Shown: positions 2,715 to 28,707 of the stretch, in pieces
Position numbering within the stretch: the first letter of the stretch is position 1
Layout of the letters: every line of letters starts with the position of its first letter
Assembly (NCBI GenBank): GCA_025459275.1
Contig: JALOQW010000004.1
Location: forward strand, 1 to 32,160
Source of the DNA: Pirellula sp.
GTDB taxonomy: Bacteria > Planctomycetota > Planctomycetia > Pirellulales > Pirellulaceae
DNA length: 32,160 nt
Reading direction: 5' to 3'
Notes under the pieces: model-generated
Told to the model about the DNA's origin: nothing
The model's input: only the letters and a program-made list of their open reading frames with translations
The model's database searches: none
Position numbers and translations under genes: made by a program

Positions 2715-3037
2715 TTTGCGGCTGGCAGGTCACTATACAAGTCACCGGGCAGGTCAACCCCTGCGCCATCGGCGTGACTCTGAGGAAAGATCGCGCCAAC
2801 GACCATTAAGCACAGGCTACCGGTATGAAGCAACCAGCACGGCTCGTCGGCCAGGATGGTTCGCAAAGTGGCGGTCGCCACAACAAGCATCATGATGAAA
2901 TAGATCCGTTCGGCATTCGATCGCACGCGGGCGTCATCGCAAAGCCGGGCAATCCATAAGCTGAGGATCGACAAGGCCGGGACGATCCAAGGGAACCATG
3001 CAGCAAACGACTCAAACCAATAAGGTACGTAAGGCAT
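2711..3037 (-). CDS. Hypothetical membrane protein, translationally coupled to mobA
   Basis: 108 aa with several hydrophobic segments; 4-bp overlap with the mobA start. Confidence 0.7.
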   Translation of the reverse strand: MPYVPYWFESFAAWFPWIVPALSILSLWIARLCDDARVRSNAERIYFIMMLVVATATLRTILADEPCWLLHTGSLCLMVVGAIFPQSHADGAGVDLPGDLYSDLPAAK

Positions 3038-3156
3038 AGGCTTTAACCACGCATTCCATGCGGTTTTTCAGGCGCGAACCCTCGAAGAAAGGACGCGATT
3101 TCGGAGCCACCTTCCATGGTAGCCGTGGGTCATCATGCCGACTTTTCGAAACGAAA

Positions 3157-5223
3157 TCAAGAGCGATGTGTGGAAGGCAAAACGGGGCCCCGACGCAATC
3201 GCGGCAAACAAAGCAGTGCTTCGAGGATGAGTGCTGCCAGCATGAGAATCACGAACCATCGCCATATTTCTTGAATGATGCCGTTGCTTCTACCCTCCAC
3301 GCCGACTCTCGCCCAATTCAGCTCACCAAACATCGTCCCCAACGCCGACTCGTCGACGGTCGAAGACTCGTCTTCGCGGAGGCCGCGATCCAAAGCCACC
3401 AAAGACTTGTTGGAATCATAGATCCCAGCATGCATGGCGTACTCCGTCGTGGTCGCCGCTTCATCCCCTGCAATCAACAGGGAAGTCGCCTGGACCCAGT
3501 CGCGGTTTACCCCGGCCACTCCTTGCTTGATCGTGGCCGCCCGTCTGGCCCCGGCAGCCAACATTCGTTGGATGGCCACGTACAGCACCACGCCGTCCCC
3601 TGCCAGCGTGGAGTCGCGATCTGACGGAGTAGTGGCACAAATCACCATGGAGCCTGCCGTCTCTCTAGGCCCATCGTTTTCTAGAACCGCCAAGATCGGC
3701 TGCCCGTCAGCCATGCTTGCCAGAGCTGTAGCACGTCCGTCGAAGGCACAGAGCCGACGAATGCTCAATTGCCCTAAAGGCAAGGGGGCGCCGTTGAGTG
3801 TGTTGGCCAGAAGCTCTGAATCGTTTTGCCATTGAGAGATTCTCGTATTCGAGGCGGCGTCTTCGTCGACGCCCGTCGGAGTGCCTCTAGCGACTCCGCC
3901 GACATCCTTCCATTCCTTCCACTGAAAGCCAAAAGCCACGTTGTCGTTGGGGTTTTCAGGAGGGACCAACAGTACCTGGCCTCCGGAATGGACAAAGCTC
4001 TGAACGATCTCGAGCAAATCTCCTGTGGGGAGATCGTCGTTCCAGACGAGCAACGCAACTCCATCGAGTGGGACTGAAGGGAGCTGCGAAGGAGTAACGA
4101 GTTCAGATTCGCATCGAATCGTTTGTTGCGGAGCGATGCTCGCACACAATTCGATGGCGGCGACGAGGTCCGGTGTATTGCTGACAATTACGGTGCGCCG
4201 CAATGGAGGTTGTTCAAATGCAAAGTAACTGATGTCGTTGCTCGGATTCCCATCGCTAGGAATCTTGACCCATCCCCAACCTCGAATCCCCTCCGTTGCT
4301 GAACCGTCTACGGCGGGCAATGGCAATCGATAATCGTTGACCTGGGCTCCTGAAGCACTCGCATTGACATCCAGGGATGTCCGCGAGTTGCCGATGGCAA
4401 TCTCAACTGGGATCGAAACGGCATCGGATCCAGACGTCCGGTCGATGCGAAAACTGATGGAGAGTGTCGGCGTTTCCGAGTTATCGATGCATTGAGCGTT
4501 CGTGACACGAATACTGCGATCCTCCGTTCGATCGCTTGAAAGATCCAGCACGGAGAAGCGAATGTTTTGAGGGAGCGACTTGAATCCATCGCGAACCGCC
4601 GCCCATCTGCCATCTCGACTGCGCCAATCTGCTTCTCGCAGATCCGATCCGATCCAAACCACCGAGTTGCCGACCGGATTGTTCTTAGCGTATACCAGGG
4701 CTTGTTCCAATAATCCTGGAATATCGCTGGTCGCGCTCCAAGGAGTGCGAGGTACCGCTCGAAGCCATTGATTGAGTGAAGCAAACTCCTCGGGTTTACC
4801 GGTGGCTTCATCCAATTGAATGATGCGCTGGATTCCAAGTGTTTGGAAGGTAGAGGACAACTGATCGATGGCGGATTCGAGACGCGTTCGATTCGAATTG
4901 GGAAGTCGGTCCCCCATGCTTGGTGATCGATCCAAGATCACGATGGCCTGCGTTCCGGATTCTCCGTTGAGAAGTGCCATGATGCCGCTGGTCAATGGTC
5001 GTGCGGTGAATAGGACCAAGGCGAGTACGGCCAGGGTTCGCATGGCTAGTATGAGCCACTGCCTCAGCCGAGTGTAACCGCTGGACATGCGATTGGCTTC
5101 CAGCAAGAATCGCATCGCCGCCCAAGGAACCGTTTGGAAGCGACGTTGGTTCACCAAGTGGATGACAATCGGAATGGCTGCAAGCGGAAGAGCCAGCAGC
5201 ATCCATGGCTGCAGGAAACTCAT
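3157..5223 (-). CDS. BatA/VWA-domain protein with N-terminal double-TM domain
   Basis: MSFLQPWMLLALPLAAIPIVIHLVNQRRFQTVPWAAMRFLL is a typical BatA N-terminus; VWA MIDAS-like DRSPSMGD; lies in a MoxR-DUF58-BatA operon. Confidence 0.9.
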   Translation of the reverse strand: MSFLQPWMLLALPLAAIPIVIHLVNQRRFQTVPWAAMRFLLEANRMSSGYTRLRQWLILAMRTLAVLALVLFTARPLTSGIMALLNGESGTQAIVILDRSPSMGDRLPNSNRTRLESAIDQLSSTFQTLGIQRIIQLDEATGKPEEFASLNQWLRAVPRTPWSATSDIPGLLEQALVYAKNNPVGNSVVWIGSDLREADWRSRDGRWAAVRDGFKSLPQNIRFSVLDLSSDRTEDRSIRVTNAQCIDNSETPTLSISFRIDRTSGSDAVSIPVEIAIGNSRTSLDVNASASGAQVNDYRLPLPAVDGSATEGIRGWGWVKIPSDGNPSNDISYFAFEQPPLRRTVIVSNTPDLVAAIELCASIAPQQTIRCESELVTPSQLPSVPLDGVALLVWNDDLPTGDLLEIVQSFVHSGGQVLLVPPENPNDNVAFGFQWKEWKDVGGVARGTPTGVDEDAASNTRISQWQNDSELLANTLNGAPLPLGQLSIRRLCAFDGRATALASMADGQPILAVLENDGPRETAGSMVICATTPSDRDSTLAGDGVVLYVAIQRMLAAGARRAATIKQGVAGVNRDWVQATSLLIAGDEAATTTEYAMHAGIYDSNKSLVALDRGLREDESSTVDESALGTMFGELNWARVGVEGRSNGIIQEIWRWFVILMLAALILEALLCLPRLRRGPVLPSTHRS

Positions 5224-6128
5224 CGCACACCTCGAGCTCGCGTTCGTCCAACGAGGAAGCGCATCATCGGATGTTCATAAGACTCGCTGGTCAAAACTCG
5301 GTGGTAATCCACCGCAGTCTCCAAGACGATCTTCTGCATCTCCTTCAAGTAGTTTTGAAGGGCGCGTTGATATCGATCCGCTATCTCGTTGGGTTCAACA
5401 AATAACGAAGTGTTTCCTTCCATGTCCACGAATCGTACCGGTCGTCCGAATGCGAAGTCGACTTCTTGCTGGTCCAGGAGATGAAATGCAGCCACGTCAT
5501 GCTTTCGGAATCGCAAGTGTTCCAGCGATCGTTTTAAGGCTGCAGGTTCGACAAAAAAATCAGAGATGATGACGACCAATGCGCGCTGACGAACGGTTTC
5601 AGCGAGTTCATCAAGTATCTCCGGTAGACGAGTTTCTCCTAAAGTATTTGCGTTTTCCAAGGTATCGAAAAGTACCTTCAGATGAGCAGCGCTGCGCCGA
5701 GGAGGGATGTTCTGCACAATCTGATGGGAAACCAGAGACAGACCGACCGCATCTCCTTGTTGGGCTGCGAGATAGCCTAGCGAAGCCGCGATGCGGCGAC
5801 CGTAATCGAGCTTGGTCAGCATCCCTTTGGATGCGAATCCCATGGAACCGCTGGTATCCAAGACAACGCAGCAGCGAAGGTTGGTGTCGGCTTCGAACTC
5901 TTTGACGTAGTATCGATCGGTCCGACCATAGGCTCGCCAATCCAGACGGCGTAGGTCGTCGCCCGGAACATACTTTCGGTACTCCGCGAACTCGACGCTC
6001 GAACCGCGGTGAGGCGACGCATGTCTGCCGGATACATTCCCTTGCATGGCATGCCTTGGATGCAATGGCACGGCAGCCAATCGAGACAGAATCTGCGGAT
6101 CGAGAAACGAACGCGAGACTTGAAACAT
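5220..6128 (-). CDS. DUF58 domain-containing protein (VWA-like)
   Basis: RHASPHRGSSVEFAEYRKYVPGDDLRRLDWRAYGRTDRYYVKEFEADTNLRCCVVLDTSGSMGF is the DUF58 signature; 4-bp overlap with the BatA gene. Confidence 0.95.
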   Translation of the reverse strand: MFQVSRSFLDPQILSRLAAVPLHPRHAMQGNVSGRHASPHRGSSVEFAEYRKYVPGDDLRRLDWRAYGRTDRYYVKEFEADTNLRCCVVLDTSGSMGFASKGMLTKLDYGRRIAASLGYLAAQQGDAVGLSLVSHQIVQNIPPRRSAAHLKVLFDTLENANTLGETRLPEILDELAETVRQRALVVIISDFFVEPAALKRSLEHLRFRKHDVAAFHLLDQQEVDFAFGRPVRFVDMEGNTSLFVEPNEIADRYQRALQNYLKEMQKIVLETAVDYHRVLTSESYEHPMMRFLVGRTRARGVR

Positions 6129-6131
6129 GGC

Positions 6132-7154
6132 CTATTGCATCTCGTCGACCAGACGGGAAACGATCTGTTTGGCCGTGACCCCCTCAGCTTGTGCAGCAAA
6201 GGTCGTGATCAATCGATGGACCAACACGGGCCGTGCGACGTACTGGACGTCTTCAAGGCGAACCATATAGCTCCCTTGCAATGCCGCGCGGCTCTTGGCT
6301 CCAAGGATGAGGTTCTGGACAGCGCGGGGCCCAGCGCCCCAGGAGACGAACGGCTTGAGCCAATCCGGAGCGGTCGTTCCTTGCGGGCGCGTCTTACGCA
6401 CTAGCCGGGCAGCATACTCATAAATGTGATCCGGGACCGGAATACGTCGCACGAGCCGTTGGTAGCTCATGATCTCTTCGCCACTCAAGACGCCGGCCAG
6501 CCGAACCATGTCGTCCCCGGTGGTCGTGCGAGCGATTTGAATCTCTTCTTCTTCGTTGGGATAATCCAATTCGACCAGGAACATAAAGCGATCGAGCTGT
6601 GCTTCGGGCAACGGATACGTACCTTCCTGTTCCACCGGATTCTGGGTCGCGAGAACCATGAATGGCGACTCGAGTTCGAACGACTTCCCCAAGACCGTGA
6701 CTCGCTGTTCCTGCATGGCTTCGAGCAACGCAGCCTGTGTCTTCGGAGGGGCGCGATTGATCTCATCGGCGAGAATGATGTTTTCAAAAATCGGGCCTGG
6801 GATGAACTGGAATTCGCGTCTTCCTTCTGCTGTCTCCTGCAGGATATCGGTACCGGTGATGTCCATCGGCATCAGGTCAGGAGTGAATTGGATGCGATTA
6901 AAACCCAGGGACATCGTTTCCGCGATCTTGCTGACGAGCAGTGTCTTGGCCAGGCCAGGAACCCCCATCAGCAGCGCGTGTCGACGAGCGAACAAGCAAA
7001 TCGCGAGTTGCTCGATGACTTCTCGCTGACCGACAATGACCCTTCCTAACTCGCTGCACAATCGGGCATAGCTGCCGCGTAGCATATCGATGGCATGGAC
7101 ATCTTGATCGGATAACTGGGCGTTCGTTGCGCCGGTGGTGTTGGCAAGGCTCAT
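6132..7154 (-). CDS. MoxR family AAA+ ATPase
   Basis: GVPGLAKTLL Walker A, ILADEINRAPPKTQAALLEAMQEQRVT Walker B, FMVLATQNPVEQEGTYPLPEAQLDRF. Confidence 0.97.
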   Translation of the reverse strand: MSLANTTGATNAQLSDQDVHAIDMLRGSYARLCSELGRVIVGQREVIEQLAICLFARRHALLMGVPGLAKTLLVSKIAETMSLGFNRIQFTPDLMPMDITGTDILQETAEGRREFQFIPGPIFENIILADEINRAPPKTQAALLEAMQEQRVTVLGKSFELESPFMVLATQNPVEQEGTYPLPEAQLDRFMFLVELDYPNEEEEIQIARTTTGDDMVRLAGVLSGEEIMSYQRLVRRIPVPDHIYEYAARLVRKTRPQGTTAPDWLKPFVSWGAGPRAVQNLILGAKSRAALQGSYMVRLEDVQYVARPVLVHRLITTFAAQAEGVTAKQIVSRLVDEMQ

Positions 7155-7229
7155 TCGATGAAGTAACGCAAAGTGAGATGGGTTAGTCGATGGATCGGTC
7201 GAAACGTCAGCAATTATTGTACTTCAAAC

Positions 7230-8021
7230 TCATTCCGACGTTTTCTTGCTGAGGGCTTGGTCGAGAAAACCCATCACAATCTTGCGGTAAACACGTTCCA
7301 ACAGCGGGTTGGATTCAATGATTTTCATGATCTTGTACAGCTGCGGTCCGGTTTCCGCGTCCAATTCGATTTCCGTCGTGATGCCATGGGCATCGATCAT
7401 GGTAGCGATGTACTGGTTCCTTCCGGCTGCATCCATTTCCTTTCGAACCCGATGGAATTGGGCCGTATCGATATCGAATGGGGGCGGATTGTCGTTGGGA
7501 TTCAGGTCCTCGGAAACGGGTTCGGTTCGACGTTGCCCCAAGAGTCCACCGAGAAAATCGGCCATCTCATCGATGTGCTCCGGCTTACTGGTCTCATTCA
7601 AGCGTCGACTGAGTCGCGACAGTTTATTTTCATTCTCTTGTTGAGAGCGATGTTGGCCATCGGTTACGCTCCGATCGATTTGACGTTGAACGAACGACGA
7701 CAGATCGCTGACCTTCGGATCGGGAAGCACATTTCGAGTCTTGCTGGCGTCGACGATATCGGCCCATCGTTCATCGATTTCTCCCGCATCCAGCTTGGTC
7801 ACATCGGCCGTAGTCGCATCGACATAGGTGGAAGGCGAATCCACCGATGCGGGCCCCCAGCGGCCATCGACTTGGATTTCTGAATTGGACGGCCCGACAG
7901 GCAAAGGGGTAGAGAGCATCCAAGACAAGGCGATTCCAGTCACCGTCACATGCAGGCCCACGGACAGGAACCAAGCCAATCGCCAAGGTCGTGAACGGAA
8001 TGGAATCGCGGTAGGAAACAT
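7230..8021 (-). CDS. Unknown protein with a TonB-like N-terminal transmembrane segment
   Basis: 263 aa; N-terminal RPWRLAWFLSVGLHVTVTGIALSWM resembles the TonB anchor (SxxxH motif); the rest is not recognised. Confidence 0.75.
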   Translation of the reverse strand: MFPTAIPFRSRPWRLAWFLSVGLHVTVTGIALSWMLSTPLPVGPSNSEIQVDGRWGPASVDSPSTYVDATTADVTKLDAGEIDERWADIVDASKTRNVLPDPKVSDLSSFVQRQIDRSVTDGQHRSQQENENKLSRLSRRLNETSKPEHIDEMADFLGGLLGQRRTEPVSEDLNPNDNPPPFDIDTAQFHRVRKEMDAAGRNQYIATMIDAHGITTEIELDAETGPQLYKIMKIIESNPLLERVYRKIVMGFLDQALSKKTSE

Positions 8022-20916: not shown

Positions 20917-21594
20917 CTATGACGCGCGAGCCAAATTAGAAGCGCCATCAACGCAATCGCCCGTTAAAGGGATCACGTTCTGGGGGATCGCTTCATCACT
21001 CTCCGCCCCTGCGCAGCAATTCTGCTTGATGCATGGAGCCATCCAGCGTCGCTTAAGATTGAGGACGTGGGCCATAATCAATAGCAAGCCACCGATGGGA
21101 GTCATCCAAGGTTGGAATGTGCCGATCCCTGCCATCAGCAAATCCGGAGTTTCCTTGTTCGACTGTTCGTCCGATGGTTTGCTCGCATGCGAATGATCGT
21201 GATGTGCGTGATCGTGATGTGCGTGATCGTGATGTGCGTGATGACCATGAGCTTGATCATCGTCTTGCAAATGACTCACCGAACTGTCTGGGGAGCAGCA
21301 ATCGAGGGAACAACAGTCGCCGGGCAAAACAAAAGCGGCTGTCAGGATCAATCCGAGACCGGAGCTTGCGAGAGTCAGAATGCGCAGATCCCGAAAACGA
21401 AAGACGGTCGGGAGAATGGCCAACGCAACTAGCGAGCAACACACGACCGCCGCCACTTGATGGAACTCCGGAGCAGCCATCCATTCCGTGAACTTGAGCG
21501 TAGGAAGGGTCGCGACGAGAACAGGTGTCGCAGCGCAATGGACTGCACAAGCTGCCGACGCAAAAATTCCCAATCGATCCTTCCAATCACGCAT
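20917..21594 (-). CDS. MerC domain-containing protein with His-rich metal-binding-like insert
   Basis: DRLGIFASAACAVHCAATPVLVATLPTL is a MerC-like first helix; HGHHAHHDHAHHDHAHHDHSH. ATG at 21594; the ORF can open at TTG 21627. Confidence 0.85.
   Translation of the reverse strand: MRDWKDRLGIFASAACAVHCAATPVLVATLPTLKFTEWMAAPEFHQVAAVVCCSLVALAILPTVFRFRDLRILTLASSGLGLILTAAFVLPGDCCSLDCCSPDSSVSHLQDDDQAHGHHAHHDHAHHDHAHHDHSHASKPSDEQSNKETPDLLMAGIGTFQPWMTPIGGLLLIMAHVLNLKRRWMAPCIKQNCCAGAESDEAIPQNVIPLTGDCVDGASNLARAS
21195..21239. repeat. Three tandem 15-bp repeats GATCGTGATGTGCGT
   Basis: Perfect units at 21195, 21210 and 21225; encode the pentapeptide repeat (HHDHA-type) of the MerC-like protein on the minus strand. 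Confidence 0.9.
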
Positions 21595-21628
21595 TCCATC
21601 CACTCCAATCTTATATCTAGTCAACAAT

Positions 21629-23429: not shown

Positions 23430-25073
23430 ATGAGTCGAGGCCAAAAACGCCTTTACAAAGGACAAGTTTCGCTCAACAACCTCCGTCCGATCCGATCATT
23501 CGTCCATTCCGACCATTCCTCCAATCCGACCATTATCGTGACCAAAGGTAAAGTCGTCCTCGTCGCTATCGTATGGCTCCTCCTCTTCGGGATCGGAGTT
23601 GCGGTTTGGCGTTTGGTGATTTTCCCTGCCCGGACCCAGCAGCAGGAGGAGCAAGCCAAGGAGCAGGTGGCTCGGGATGTTGCCAAGACATCAGGCACCA
23701 GTCGCTATTTGCACGAGCTTCAGCTTGGGCTGGACAGCTTTTCGGGTTACGCCGTCTTGCGGAGCGAGGAGTTTCGCAAGCAGCTTGCTGATCGTGGGAT
23801 TCGGATCAAGAACATCGATGACGGAGCGAACTATGCCAAGCGCGCTGCAGACCTGGAGCAAGGATCGTTGCAGTTCGCAGCCTTTCCCATCGATGCCCTC
23901 TTGAAGACCTTTTCCAAGATGGATTATCCCGCAGCCACCATCGTTGCCATCATCGACGAAACGCGAGGCGCGGACGCCATGGTGGCTTACAAGAGCAAGT
24001 TTCCCGACGTCGATCGATTGAATCAACCGGACGTGCGATTTGTTTTGGTCGGTGATTCGCCGAGCGAGACTTTGGCGCGCGTGGTGATGCAGGACTTCGA
24101 TTTGGATCGGCTCGGTGCGAACTCCATCGAAACGATGCATTCCCCTGAAGAGTTGATGGCTCGATATCGCGCGGCGGCTCCTACGACCAACGATGTCTAT
24201 GTCACTTGGGAGCCTTACGTAAGCCAGATACTAGGCAATGATCAGTTGCATGTGCTGGTCGACAGCTCGCGATTCACTGGATACATCGTCGATAGCTTAG
24301 TTGTGAGTCGGGATTATTTGCTCAAAAATGGGCCGGTCGTCGAATCGGTGCTCGAAGCCTACTTCACTGCTCTGTACGCTTACCGGGATGACCAGGCCCT
24401 GATTCAATTGCTCTTACAGGATGCCAAGCAAACCAAGCAGGAACTGACGCAGGAGCAAGCCCAACGATTGGTTGCAGGGATTCAGTGGAAGAACACCCAA
24501 GAGAACTTTGCCCATTTCGGCAAACGAGCCGGGGCTGTGGTTCATATCGAAGATATGTTGACTCGGATTGCCGGGGTCTTGTCCAAGTCAGGATCGATCT
24601 CGGAAAGCAGCGTCAATGAGAAGTTCAACCGTTACTTTTTCGATCGGCCGATCGAAAATCTTCAGTCTCGCAATTTCCATCCCGGGTTGGCTTCCGAAGC
24701 GGTGCGAGTAGAAGCAAAGCTGAAGGCCTTGAGCGACGCAGAATGGGATCGTTTGGTCACGGTAGGAACGTTGAGTGTTCCGGAATTGGTCTTCCTACGA
24801 GGCAGCTCGAATTTGTCGGATCAAAGCAAACGGACGTTAGACGATTTGTTTCAGAAGTTGCAAGCATGGCCGCAATACTATTTGATCATTCGGGGCAACG
24901 CGTCGCAGGCGGGTGACATGCAAGCCAATATCCAACTTGCAGAACAACGTGGACAAGCGGCACTGAAGTATCTGCTATCGTTGGGGATACCATCGGAACG
25001 CATGCGCGTGGTCACCGGAGAGATCACGGGGCAGACGCGAGTGACTTTTGTCGTAGGACAAATGCCGTTTTGA
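23430..25073 (+). CDS. Membrane-anchored NMT1-like substrate-binding domain fused to C-terminal OmpA-like domain
   Basis: N-terminal TM GKVVLVAIVWLLLFGIGVAVWRLVIFP; SBP-like VYVTWEPYVSQIL...IVDSLVVSRDYLLKNGPVVESVLEAYFTALYAY; OmpA-like LIIRGNASQAGDMQANIQLAEQRGQAALKYLLSLGIPSERM. ATG at 23430; the longer ORF start at 23223 overlaps nnrD and is unlikely. Confidence 0.85.
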   Translation: MSRGQKRLYKGQVSLNNLRPIRSFVHSDHSSNPTIIVTKGKVVLVAIVWLLLFGIGVAVWRLVIFPARTQQQEEQAKEQVARDVAKTSGTSRYLHELQLGLDSFSGYAVLRSEEFRKQLADRGIRIKNIDDGANYAKRAADLEQGSLQFAAFPIDALLKTFSKMDYPAATIVAIIDETRGADAMVAYKSKFPDVDRLNQPDVRFVLVGDSPSETLARVVMQDFDLDRLGANSIETMHSPEELMARYRAAAPTTNDVYVTWEPYVSQILGNDQLHVLVDSSRFTGYIVDSLVVSRDYLLKNGPVVESVLEAYFTALYAYRDDQALIQLLLQDAKQTKQELTQEQAQRLVAGIQWKNTQENFAHFGKRAGAVVHIEDMLTRIAGVLSKSGSISESSVNEKFNRYFFDRPIENLQSRNFHPGLASEAVRVEAKLKALSDAEWDRLVTVGTLSVPELVFLRGSSNLSDQSKRTLDDLFQKLQAWPQYYLIIRGNASQAGDMQANIQLAEQRGQAALKYLLSLGIPSERMRVVTGEITGQTRVTFVVGQMPF

Positions 25074-25103
25074 ACATTTTCGATTGTTACGGGACCCACT
25101 GCA

Positions 25104-25829
25104 TTGGACGATCTGCGCAAGCGAATCATGAACGAGTTGTTCGTTGCCCCTTCGGTCGTTCTTCCGATCGTAGGCGGTGCCACGGCATGGCTCATGTCTT
25201 GGGCGGTCGGTGGCATCGGTTGGCTGAACGCGGCTGGATTAGTCGGCGTGTTGGCAGGGATCGGATGGTTTGCGACTCGATTCATTTTCCAACTCGACTC
25301 CATCACGGAGAAAGCCATGCGCGATCAAGTGATGGAGCAGATTCGACAGGAAGAACAGCGACTCGACCAATTGGCTGTGCGACTTCGTGCCGATCGCGAT
25401 CCGAGAACGGAAGATTATTTGATGCTGCTCCGAACCAATCGGGCCGAGATCGAGCGGGTCGCGCAAACCCCAGGAATCCAGCTTCGCAGCATGGAGATTG
25501 TCAAACAGGCGAGACAGCTGTTTTGGGCCGCCATCGAACAACTCGAACAATCCTTGAAGATGTACGACTTGGCCCAGCAAGTGTCTGGTCCTGCACGGCG
25601 CGAGGCTTTAGAACAACGAGAGCGTTTTTTGATGGAAGCCTATGAAAGCACCGAGCACTTGCGAGAAGCCGTTGCCACATTTCGTGGTTTCGTCGACAAG
25701 AACCAGGAACGGGACATGGACACCCTACAGCGGGACCTCGCGGCATCCATAGAGGCTGCCAAGCGTTCCGAGGAAAGGATGAAAGAGCTGGAAAGCTCTC
25801 CTGATTACGAATCGTTTCTCAAAGATTGA
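25104..25829 (+). CDS. Hypothetical membrane coiled-coil protein
   Basis: Two N-terminal hydrophobic helices followed by a long charged helical region; 30 bp after the previous stop. TTG start at 25104 or ATG at 25128. Confidence 0.78.
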   Translation: MDDLRKRIMNELFVAPSVVLPIVGGATAWLMSWAVGGIGWLNAAGLVGVLAGIGWFATRFIFQLDSITEKAMRDQVMEQIRQEEQRLDQLAVRLRADRDPRTEDYLMLLRTNRAEIERVAQTPGIQLRSMEIVKQARQLFWAAIEQLEQSLKMYDLAQQVSGPARREALEQRERFLMEAYESTEHLREAVATFRGFVDKNQERDMDTLQRDLAASIEAAKRSEERMKELESSPDYESFLKD

Positions 25830-25881
25830 TTAGAGTCGAACTGTTACCTTGTTTTGAAATAACCGAGAGGAGTTCCTTTTC

Positions 25882-26691
25882 ATGTTCAATGCGTTAGGCC
25901 GTTTTTTTCGTGCAATCAAATACTTGTTTACCGGCAAGATTGACGCGGCTGCCGATGCGCTCAGCGCCAACCCAACGGTCATCTCTGCGAACTATGACCG
26001 CATCATTCAGGAAAAGAAATCGCGGCTGAATCAATACAAAGACGCCATCAGCGCCATGATCGCGCAGGAAGAGAGCAAAAAAGCCAAACTCCGATCGATC
26101 ACCGAAGAGGTGGAGAAGCTTGAGAAACTGAAGTCCGGTGCAGCAGCCCGAGCCAAACAGCTGGTCGATAAATACAACGGTGATGTCGTCGCGGTAAAGA
26201 ATGACCCCGAATACGCCAAGTGCCAATCCGCCTTCAAGGATTTTTCGAGCACGCTGGCCGAAAAACAGCAACGTGCTACCGAGCTCGAGGATGATCTCAA
26301 GCAATTGGTCCAAAACGTCAATGGTCACAAGAACCAAATCCAAACCTTGATGCGCGAACTGGAGAAGATCAAAGAAGAAAAGCACGATGCCGTCGCCGAT
26401 GTACTCTCCGCAACCGAAGAGAAACAAATCGCCGATATGGTCAATGGAATCTCCAATGACAAGACCTCAGAAGAATTGCAACGACTGCGAGACCTGCGGC
26501 AGAAAGCATCGGCGAACGCACGTGTTTCTCGAGAATTGGCGGGTATGGATTCGAAACGCGCTGAATCGGAGTTTCTTGAGTACGCACAAAAAACGGCAGC
26601 CGATGATGAGTTCGATGCTCTCATTGGCTTGACGCAAGAGAAGAAATCAAGCGAACCCTCGGTGGCCGATGCCAAGATTCCAGAAGCTTGA
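25882..26691 (+). CDS. PspA/IM30 (ESCRT-III-like) family coiled-coil protein
   Basis: MFNALGRFFRAIKYLFTGKIDAAADALSANPTVISANYDRIIQEKKSRLNQYKDAISAMIAQEESKKAKL: amphipathic N-terminal helix then long coiled coil as in PspA/Vipp1. Confidence 0.75.
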   Translation: MFNALGRFFRAIKYLFTGKIDAAADALSANPTVISANYDRIIQEKKSRLNQYKDAISAMIAQEESKKAKLRSITEEVEKLEKLKSGAAARAKQLVDKYNGDVVAVKNDPEYAKCQSAFKDFSSTLAEKQQRATELEDDLKQLVQNVNGHKNQIQTLMRELEKIKEEKHDAVADVLSATEEKQIADMVNGISNDKTSEELQRLRDLRQKASANARVSRELAGMDSKRAESEFLEYAQKTAADDEFDALIGLTQEKKSSEPSVADAKIPEA

Positions 26692-26745
26692 ACCCCGCAA
26701 TCGTAAGACCCGTTCGATCCCCTTTTTGAAGTGAGGACATTCGTT

Positions 26746-27888
26746 ATGAAAAGCCATCGTATGTTGAGGTTGTGTGTCGCGAGCTGGCTCGCCATCGGTC
26801 TCGGGTTGTGCGGCTGCACGGACAGCAAACCAACCGCGACTCCAGGAGGGGCAAACGCCTCCCCTTCAAAGACCGCAGCTGGTGGTGCCAGCTCGGGTTC
26901 ATCTGCTCCCGCCAAATTCACGTTGGCATGGAGCGAATATCCGTCATGGAGCATTTTCGGAGTCGCCGACGAAGTGGGATTGATCGACGGCAAAGCCGGC
27001 GCGCAAGGCTCGATCGAGAAGAAGTACAACGTCGACATCGAGCTGCTGCTCGCCAGTTACGACCAATGCATCACCCTGTACGGCAACTCGCAAGCCGATG
27101 CCGTCTGCATCACCAACATCGACATCCTCGGGGCTGCCGGCTCCCGCAACTCCGTCGCCATCATGCCTACCTCGACCAGCGCCGGAGCGGATGCCTGCAT
27201 CACGGCAGGGATTGATTCGATCGAGGGACTGCAAGGGAAAATCACTCGAGGACTCGAGAAGAGTGTTTCTCAGTATTGCTTCGATCGATGCCTCGAGAAA
27301 CTCGGAAAGAAGACCGCTGATTTCCCCTTCAGCCAGATGGATCCGGAACAAGCTGCCCAAGCCTTCCAGGGCAAGGACCCCGATGTACCCTCCATCATGG
27401 TATGGAACCCGTTCGTGATGCAATCGCTGCGCAGCCGAAGCGATGCCAAGGTCCTCTTCAGTTCGGAATCGATCCCCGAGGAAATCATCGACATGGTCGT
27501 GGTTGGCAAAGATTCGCTCGACAAGGCTGGCGGCAAGGAGTTCGCCATGGCGGTGTTGGAAACCTTCTATGCCATGAACCAGCGCATGTCGGATCCCAAG
27601 ACGTCCGATGCGACGTTGATCGGCATCGGAGCACGCTTCGCCAAATTGGAACTCGACGACATGAAAACCATCGTCAAGCAAACGCGATTCTATTCCGATC
27701 CCAACGATGCAGTACGGCTCTTTTCCAGCGATGCCTTTCAAAAGGAGACGATGCCCATCGTCAGCAAGTTCTGCGTGACTTACGGCATGACACCTCAGCC
27801 GATTGCTTTGTCATTCGGCACAGGCCAAGGGGTCATGGACTTCGATACGTCCTATCTCAAGTCGTACGTCGAAGCCCAAAAGAAGTAA
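26746..27888 (+). CDS. ABC transporter substrate-binding lipoprotein (NMT1/SsuA-like)
   Basis: Lipobox-like AIGLGLCGCTDS; FTLAWSEYPSWSIFGVADEVGLID, YGNSQADAVCITNIDILGAA. ATG at 26746; the ORF opens at GTG 26731. Confidence 0.87.
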   Translation: MKSHRMLRLCVASWLAIGLGLCGCTDSKPTATPGGANASPSKTAAGGASSGSSAPAKFTLAWSEYPSWSIFGVADEVGLIDGKAGAQGSIEKKYNVDIELLLASYDQCITLYGNSQADAVCITNIDILGAAGSRNSVAIMPTSTSAGADACITAGIDSIEGLQGKITRGLEKSVSQYCFDRCLEKLGKKTADFPFSQMDPEQAAQAFQGKDPDVPSIMVWNPFVMQSLRSRSDAKVLFSSESIPEEIIDMVVVGKDSLDKAGGKEFAMAVLETFYAMNQRMSDPKTSDATLIGIGARFAKLELDDMKTIVKQTRFYSDPNDAVRLFSSDAFQKETMPIVSKFCVTYGMTPQPIALSFGTGQGVMDFDTSYLKSYVEAQKK

Positions 27889-27891
27889 CCC

Positions 27892-28707
27892 ATGATACGA
27901 CGCGATCTGCCCAAATGGTTGTTTGTCGCTATGGCGGTCGGTGGCGTCATCGTGCTGCTGATCGCCTATGAATGGCTGTCGCTTCGACAGACTGCGATCA
28001 ATCCCAAGCAGACCACGATCCCTTCGTTCGCCAAGCTGGCAGAAGGAGTGCAACGCGTCTTCCAAGTCCAAGGCACGGCAGAGAATCCCAAACCTCCGAT
28101 GTTCTGGAACGATATCGGAGCTACCCTCTGGCGTTTGGCGATGGGGCTCGGCATCGGCATTCTGGCGTCGGTCCTTGTGGGAGTCCTGATGGGAGCCTAC
28201 CGATGGATCGAGGCCCCCTTGAGCCCAGTGATCATGTTTATGTCCAAGGTTCCCCCAACCGCGATCATGCCACTCTACTTTGCGGTCGCCGGAATCGGAT
28301 TCCGAATGTACGTGCTGATGGTGGCGTTGGGAGTCTTCTTTTCGATGGCGCAAGCCATTTTTCAGGCCGTCCGTGATAACGTCACCGATGAGGCTATCAG
28401 CAAGGCTTATACCCTTGGGGCGTCAGAGATCGAAGTCATCTATGAGGTCATCTGGAAGCAGATCCTCCCCAACTTTTTGGACTGCATTCGCTCCCAGATT
28501 GGTCCGGCCATGATCTACTTGCTCGCCGCGGAGTATTCGATGGGGGAGCCGGGGGTCGGATGTCAAATCCGAATGCAGTACAAGCTCCTGAACTTCAACG
28601 TCATCTTCGTTTACCTGTTCGTCCTAGGCATTCTCGGCCTGGTGGCTGAGTTTGGGCTCGTATGGCTCCGAAAGTGGCTTTGCCCCTGGTTCCAAGAAGG
28701 GCGGTAA
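27892..28707 (+). CDS. ABC transporter permease (SsuC/TauC-like)
   Basis: Multi-TM with EAA loop DEAISKAYTLGASEIEVIYEVIWKQILPNFLDCIR; 3 bp after the upstream SBP gene. Confidence 0.9.
   Translation: MIRRDLPKWLFVAMAVGGVIVLLIAYEWLSLRQTAINPKQTTIPSFAKLAEGVQRVFQVQGTAENPKPPMFWNDIGATLWRLAMGLGIGILASVLVGVLMGAYRWIEAPLSPVIMFMSKVPPTAIMPLYFAVAGIGFRMYVLMVALGVFFSMAQAIFQAVRDNVTDEAISKAYTLGASEIEVIYEVIWKQILPNFLDCIRSQIGPAMIYLLAAEYSMGEPGVGCQIRMQYKLLNFNVIFVYLFVLGILGLVAEFGLVWLRKWLCPWFQEGR

Follow-up and report, generated by a model that had tools for sequence, protein, structure and literature searches.

Operons that combine PspA, Snf7 with a transmembrane segment (TM), a double AAA+ protein, an ABC ATPase, a permease and PBP-OmpA (e.g., OGG56892.1) were described by Ravi et al. 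(2024, mSystems; PMC11237479, section 18), where a link between transport and membrane remodelling was already proposed in a few sentences. Importers of the taurine/sulfonate/nitrate type and the "putative urea" SBP (TIGR03427) share an EAA permease, an SBP lipoprotein and an importer-type ATPase with the system reported here, but their subfamily cut-offs are missed here, and SBP-OmpA, vWA, PspA and AAA+ proteins are extra. Classical PspABC/Vipp1 and archaeal ESCRT (Snf7-Vps4) share the predicted PspA/Vipp1-like fold and a same-operon AAA+ comparable to Vps4, whereas the partners PspB, PspC and PspF were not seen in our module, which has transporter parts instead. The huge gut phages known as Jug phages (PMC12363816) have a pspA-like gene adjoining terD; their description is without transporter, OmpA or vWA, whereas here a whole eight- or nine-gene set occurs in phages. 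The 2020 huge-phage paper mentions neither transporters nor PspA.

Here, we describe a new, split member of this type of system, known from comparative genomics, in Pirellula sp. (GenBank assembly GCA_025459275.1). The window, meaning the whole 32,160-nucleotide stretch of DNA that was analyzed, is an entire contig (C456; JALOQW010000004.1). A PspA-like protein, a membrane helical protein, an AAA+ protein with an inactive first half, an ABC ATPase, a permease and SBP-OmpA are common to this genome and to the operons of Ravi et al., yet in this genome they lie on three contigs, while in relatives they are contiguous. One PBP-OmpA and no vWA protein are mentioned in the text of that paper, against two SBP-OmpA proteins and a vWA protein here, and its searched text describes neither phage carriage nor a TelA form. 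In the open literature searched, we found neither the nine-gene form that includes vWA nor its occurrence in huge phages described, a weak negative because most subscription journals lie outside that literature. Relative to it, the vWA protein with a second SBP-OmpA, the loss of an Asp in one OmpA domain, the swap of PspA for TelA and the viral module are new.

The five-gene locus and its nine-gene system

Five genes, termed C to G, lie on the forward strand. Gene C (23430 to 25073) encodes a 547-aa SBP-OmpA fusion with a TM at residues 42 to 60, an SBP-like region at about 93 to 366 and an OmpA domain at 455 to 528; gene D (25104 to 25829), a 241-aa membrane protein with hydrophobic helices at 12 to 30 and 35 to 53 and then a helical domain; gene E (25882 to 26691), a PspA/Vipp1-like protein of 269 aa; gene F (26746 to 27888), a 380-aa SBP lipoprotein with a lipobox (LCGC, residues 21 to 24; 26806 to 26817) read from the sequence; and gene G (27892 to 28707), a 271-aa ABC permease of the taurine/sulfonate type (BPD_transp_1 match, E value 2e-14). 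The gaps C-D, D-E, E-F and F-G measure 30, 52, 54 and 3 bp, so that the genes and spacings listed in a preliminary description of this DNA proved exact. The intact EAA coupling loop that it had noted in the permease is also there, at 28390 to 28473 on the forward strand (EAISKAYTLGASEIEVIYEVIWKQILPN), and is the predicted docking site for the ATPase H introduced below. Promoter and terminator scans at the locus gave results no better than shuffled sequences and so carry no information about the transcript. The gene downstream of G, a DUF1559 protein according to the preliminary description, has the same strand as the five-gene set. Elsewhere in the window, positions 20917 to 21627 (reverse strand) encode a small membrane protein that looks MerC-like by eye and contains a tandem repeat rich in His (HDHAHHDHAHHDHAHHDHSH).

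The whole window holds no ATPase gene, and the preliminary description had offered two readings of that fact: an ATPase-less permease acting as a sensor coupled to PspA, or an importer that relies on an ATPase encoded elsewhere. The assembly (4.6 Mb) is in 544 contigs and 80% complete and the genome has 57 ABC-domain matches, so the statement that there is no local ATPase is true yet weak by itself. Relatives were searched with gene C, and its flanks and the permease-adjacent ATPase were then read, which gave the full set: the window's five genes are C to G of a conserved nine-gene system, A to I. Gene A (SBP-OmpA1, about 620 aa) has SBP-like and OmpA domains and a signal peptide, gene B encodes a vWA protein with a signal peptide and a C-terminal TM, gene H an ABC ATPase, and gene I an AAA+ protein with two halves (double AAA+).

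Searches with H, I and A in the window's own genome returned one clear orthologue apiece. The orphan ATPase that the preliminary description proposed to look for is on contig C481 (7780 to 8697); it is 55% identical to the permease-adjacent ATPase of a relative (E value 4e-98; the runner-up in the genome has 5e-30). Genes I and A were found on contig C324, where B was read beside A; I, A and B together span 2857 to 7628. With I-A-B on C324, H on C481 and C-D-E-F-G on C456, all nine genes are thus in this genome, and the puzzle of the missing ATPase is solved as operon fission. An ATPase absent merely through an assembly break was considered and rejected, because the operon end is internal to the contig, with another gene beyond it, and the same split is found across the genus. 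The relocated H sits after a SOD-like gene and a DUF808 membrane protein (L044:6154-7767, on C481 of the window's genome, G000); these neighbors of H are shared by the window's genome and five or more species of the genus.

Conservation, fission and co-inheritance

A scan based on gene A over 84,980 species (one genome per species) gave 141 relatives, of which the best 80 were kept. These were mainly Planctomycetota and Verrucomicrobiota, with Lentisphaerota, Hydrogenedentota, Kiritimatiellota, Omnitrophota and single others. Gene-order strings among these best 80 of 141 included ABCDEFGHI (15 loci), IABCDEFGH (3), ABCDEFGH (3), hIABCDEFG (3, with H divergent upstream) and ABCDFGH (6, without E), and many other strings were interrupted by contig ends. 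Botrimarina colliarenosi Pla108 (L083) and Aeoliella straminimaris (L091) are cultured relatives in which the system is nearly contiguous. A split form with I-A-B alone occurred at 15 loci, mostly of Pirellula-like freshwater bacteria. At relatives' loci with G, the order C-D-E-F-G was found in 24 of 32 and C-D-F-G in 7 more; this recurrence means that the five-gene order is not due to chance, and the loss of order that would have counted against the preliminary description was not what relatives displayed. Gene E is absent at some loci (C-D-F in 7 of 45 loci with C-D), so PspA is not strictly needed there.

H stands immediately after G in 28 of 32 relatives' loci with G. An ATPase regularly adjacent in relatives and lost only here had been named in advance as evidence against the preliminary reading; adjacency is indeed the rule, but H has moved, not vanished, and has done so across a genus. 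In that genus, the operon is broken into three loci. Five examined genomes besides that of the window have C-D-E-F-G alone, with H elsewhere beside DUF808 and SOD-like genes. Other species of the genus (G436, G444 and G426) have G adjoining H, with C, D and E elsewhere and, in two of them, F elsewhere too; nothing speaks more strongly for a continued partnership of G and H, parted as they are in the window's genome. In one further genome (G126, contig C76; L046:7609-10282), E and I are together and apart from the rest, another split form.

Across 199 genomes of the family, C was present in 40 and H in 40, both in 37, C only in 3 and H only in 3 (Fisher p = 4e-33, without correction for shared ancestry). 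In the complete genome of another member of the genus (G395), A, C and H are all absent together. The reading of the permease as a sensor that works without an ATPase had the empty window in its favor, and we regard it as highly improbable: an orthologous ATPase gene occurs in this very genome and across the genus, comes straight after the permease gene in most relatives and shares its inheritance with the module. The other half of the preliminary interpretation, an importer with its ATPase encoded elsewhere, stands, the cognate H being on C481.

Protein parts and the proposed coupling

The transporter parts are those of an ABC importer: a permease with an EAA loop, an SBP lipoprotein and a motif-intact ATPase are all present in the genome. 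H keeps its Walker A motif in 25 of 27 sequences and its signature, Walker B and H-loop in 27 of 27. F matches TIGR03427 (E value 5e-40), below the family cut-off, and has about 50 invariant positions among 23 sequences, which suggest a kept ligand pocket. F and G are nearest to SsuA/TauA- and TauC-type proteins, respectively, yet miss all curated cut-offs, including those of the taurine, sulfonate and "urea" (TIGR03427) subfamilies (137.6 versus 333.9 bits for F; 77 versus 342 for G).

These affinities, the conserved positions of F and an H that looks like a normal importer ATPase are what would be expected of a plain nutrient importer of the taurine/sulfonate/nitrate type, in which PspA, AAA and vWA proteins would only protect the membrane or help assembly, and which phages would use to feed replication. 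We consider this unlikely, as import needs no three SBP-like proteins (two of them OmpA-fused), vWA and AAA+ in a fixed order, and every substrate-specific cut-off was missed.

The SBP-OmpA and vWA proteins are among these extra parts. Gene C has an N-terminal TM and matches TIGR03427 (E value 1.8e-7), SsuA_fam (1.7e-6) and OmpA (PF00691; 5.6e-11); Pfam NMT1 gave no match in gene C. In Pal/OmpA domains, an Asp (with an Arg) contacts the diaminopimelate of peptidoglycan. In gene C of the window, Ser492 (24903 to 24905) takes the place of this Asp. In the alignment of C, the Asp is replaced in 41 of 41 sequences (Arg in 33, Ser in 7, Gly in 1) and the Arg partner is kept in 40 of 40, while A has the Asp in all 43 sequences in which the motif was found (of 49), with the Arg seen in the aligned set. 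With the Asp kept in A and lost in C, A may hold peptidoglycan, and C probably either fails to hold it or holds it in an unusual way. The metal site of B (DxSGS) is kept in 37 of 38 sequences.

The PspA likeness of E is faint in sequence and clearer in predicted structure. E has a weak match to PspA_IM30 (PF04012; E value 0.0011, 19 bits versus a cut-off of 33.9), and 5 of 29 orthologues match PF04012 at an E value of <0.01 (best, 4e-6). A structure predicted with AF2 from 29 orthologues (pLDDT 77) had Vipp1/PspA entries as its seven best PDB matches (best E value 1.3e-3; probability mostly 1.00), with poor superposition. In I, Walker A and an RRPGR motif in the second half are each kept in 40 of 41 sequences and the Arg finger is kept; there is no P-loop in the first 250 residues. 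D, with its two hydrophobic helices and helical domain, matched no known family, and comparison with ESCRT-III or with E gave no Pfam, fold or profile match, so the literature label "Snf7 with TM" is not confirmed for D. What points to coupling with an ESCRT-III-like remodeller is thus a parts list, namely the PspA/Vipp1-like predicted fold and the double AAA+.

We favor, at a probability of roughly 0.55, a nine-gene envelope system, its operon here split in three loci, that couples transport or ligand state to remodelling or repair of the inner membrane. Lipoprotein F would pass a small ligand on to permease G, for which ATPase H, encoded on another contig, would supply the power. A, secreted and potentially peptidoglycan-holding, and C, tied to the inner membrane, would be SBP-like ligand sensors or relays in the periplasm; their assembly could fall to B, a vWA protein that is anchored in the membrane and has its metal site intact. 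D would hold the PspA-like E at the inner membrane, and I would disassemble assemblies of E as Vps4 does those of ESCRT-III. In this way, capture of ligand and turnover of the ABC transporter would be tied, at the inner membrane, to the assembly of PspA and its turnover by AAA; the net effect would be local remodelling or repair of that membrane in response to envelope transport or ligand state. This proposal is built on gene content, order, co-inheritance, catalytic motifs, the predicted fold of E and the carriage by phages and, with TelA for PspA, by Vibrio plasmids reported below; from these we infer that a complex forms, as well as the direction of coupling, the ligand and what A, B and D do. 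Counting against it are an E below its Pfam cut-off, a D without ESCRT-III likeness, an F short of all curated transporter cut-offs, the loci without E and a partial set in one viral contig (3300017989).

Carriage by plasmids and huge phages

Vibrio plasmids (NZ_AP025146.1 and NZ_LC081338.1) have an operon H-A-B-C-x-TelA-F-G, in which A, B, C, F, G and H match our profiles and the order A-B-C-x-x-F-G is shared. Its annotation reads ABC ATPase, OmpA, vWA, phosphate-SBP-OmpA, hypothetical protein, TelA, putative urea SBP and permease. It differs in having TelA for PspA and H first, in the absence of AAA+ from the locus and in a D-slot protein without a match to the D profile; a search for E in plasmids gave no match. 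TelA (PF05816) fills the PspA slot in NZ_AP025146.1 (L212:7970-16754) and in a 545-kb viral contig (3300037484; L236:12326-13522). The swap suggests that E acts as a scaffold on the membrane side and that an unrelated helical protein is able to take over this role.

LR756511.1, a 595,163-bp phage record, has A-B-C-D-E-F-G-H on a single strand in the order found in bacteria (L214:15610-24172; about 310.6 to 319.2 kb of the record). Phage-family matches flank the module (DnaJ-like, GroES, dUTPase and PhoH on one side, an aldehyde-dehydrogenase-like gene on the other), and PHROGs searches found a terminase (E value 1e-41), a portal (1e-72), a head protease (4e-46) and a major head protein (5e-81). 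LR756511.1 is thus a bona fide phage genome carrying the module. Gene I gave no match across the whole record, and its terminase gave none in three viral contigs of 65 to 68 kb, which are fragments and hence uninformative.

Besides LR756511.1, the IMG/VR search placed the module in about nine further viral contigs of up to 545 kb (loci L216, L226, L228, L227, L237, L230, L236 and L248), which brings the viral genomes with the module to about ten. Structural hallmarks were confirmed solely for LR756511.1; the other contigs are assigned from replication or flanking phage-family genes and their IMG/VR class. The set A-I occurs at near-identical loci from two samples (3300027983 and 3300027976, with UvsX, a ssDNA-binding protein and a DnaB-type helicase on the contig) and in 3300017388 (436 kb), 3300037467 (299 kb) and 3300015263; A-H occurs in 3300005681/3300005690 (494 kb), with C shortened to its OmpA domain. 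Up to the contig ends, A-D was found in 3300045107 and A-C in 3300032053. In 3300017989, D-E-F and I are near each other, and A, B, C, G and H are not nearby. In one phage group, a conserved membrane-type gene of no known family (125 to 135 aa) lies between A and B (L216:11925-12302 and L237:8627-9034).

The viral copies do not form one clade. The A tree requires 5 changes of the phage label, and an AU test on it, in which long branches play a part, rejects monophyly of the phages (p = 5e-51). The G+H tree also needs 5 changes, of which well-supported branches force 3. In both trees, LR756511 and 3300017388 fall near or among Pirellulales, and 3300037484 pairs with Vibrio. The GC content of the module is equal to or at most 0.05 above that of its flanks, and runs of N are absent. 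We see about an even chance that huge phages of Planctomycetota and related hosts captured a complete machine several times (ABC transporter, three binding proteins, vWA, PspA-like ESCRT-III protein and often the Vps4-like AAA+), controlling the host inner membrane or uptake during infection, and that a TelA version moves on Vibrio plasmids. That phages carry the full set speaks for these eight or nine proteins being enough for a function that merits about 10 kb of phage genome.

Mobility of this kind also suits resistance to envelope stress or a toxic agent by a TelA/Ter-like logic, in which the transporter-like part would sense an outside agent or cell-wall fragments and not feed the cell. 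TelA replacing PspA in Vibrio plasmids and one viral contig, patchy presence in the family (40 of 199 genomes), carriage by plasmids and phages and the terD-adjoining pspA-like gene of gut huge phages all fit, but TerD, TerC and known resistance genes were not seen in the module, and H has all catalytic motifs, as for active transport. We judge this reading unlikely and retain that of a transport-coupled envelope system.

What was a vague placement of PspA next to a transporter can now be described as a system of nine defined parts whose order is strict, and its natural splits show which parts stay together. It provides a bacterial example of joint inheritance, as a single unit, of an ESCRT-III-like protein, a Vps4-like ATPase and a transporter. 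Huge phages carry that unit intact, and plasmids carry its version with TelA for PspA, so that expressing one cassette could serve to test what it does, and the partner process of PspA-type remodelling outside Proteobacteria becomes directly testable.
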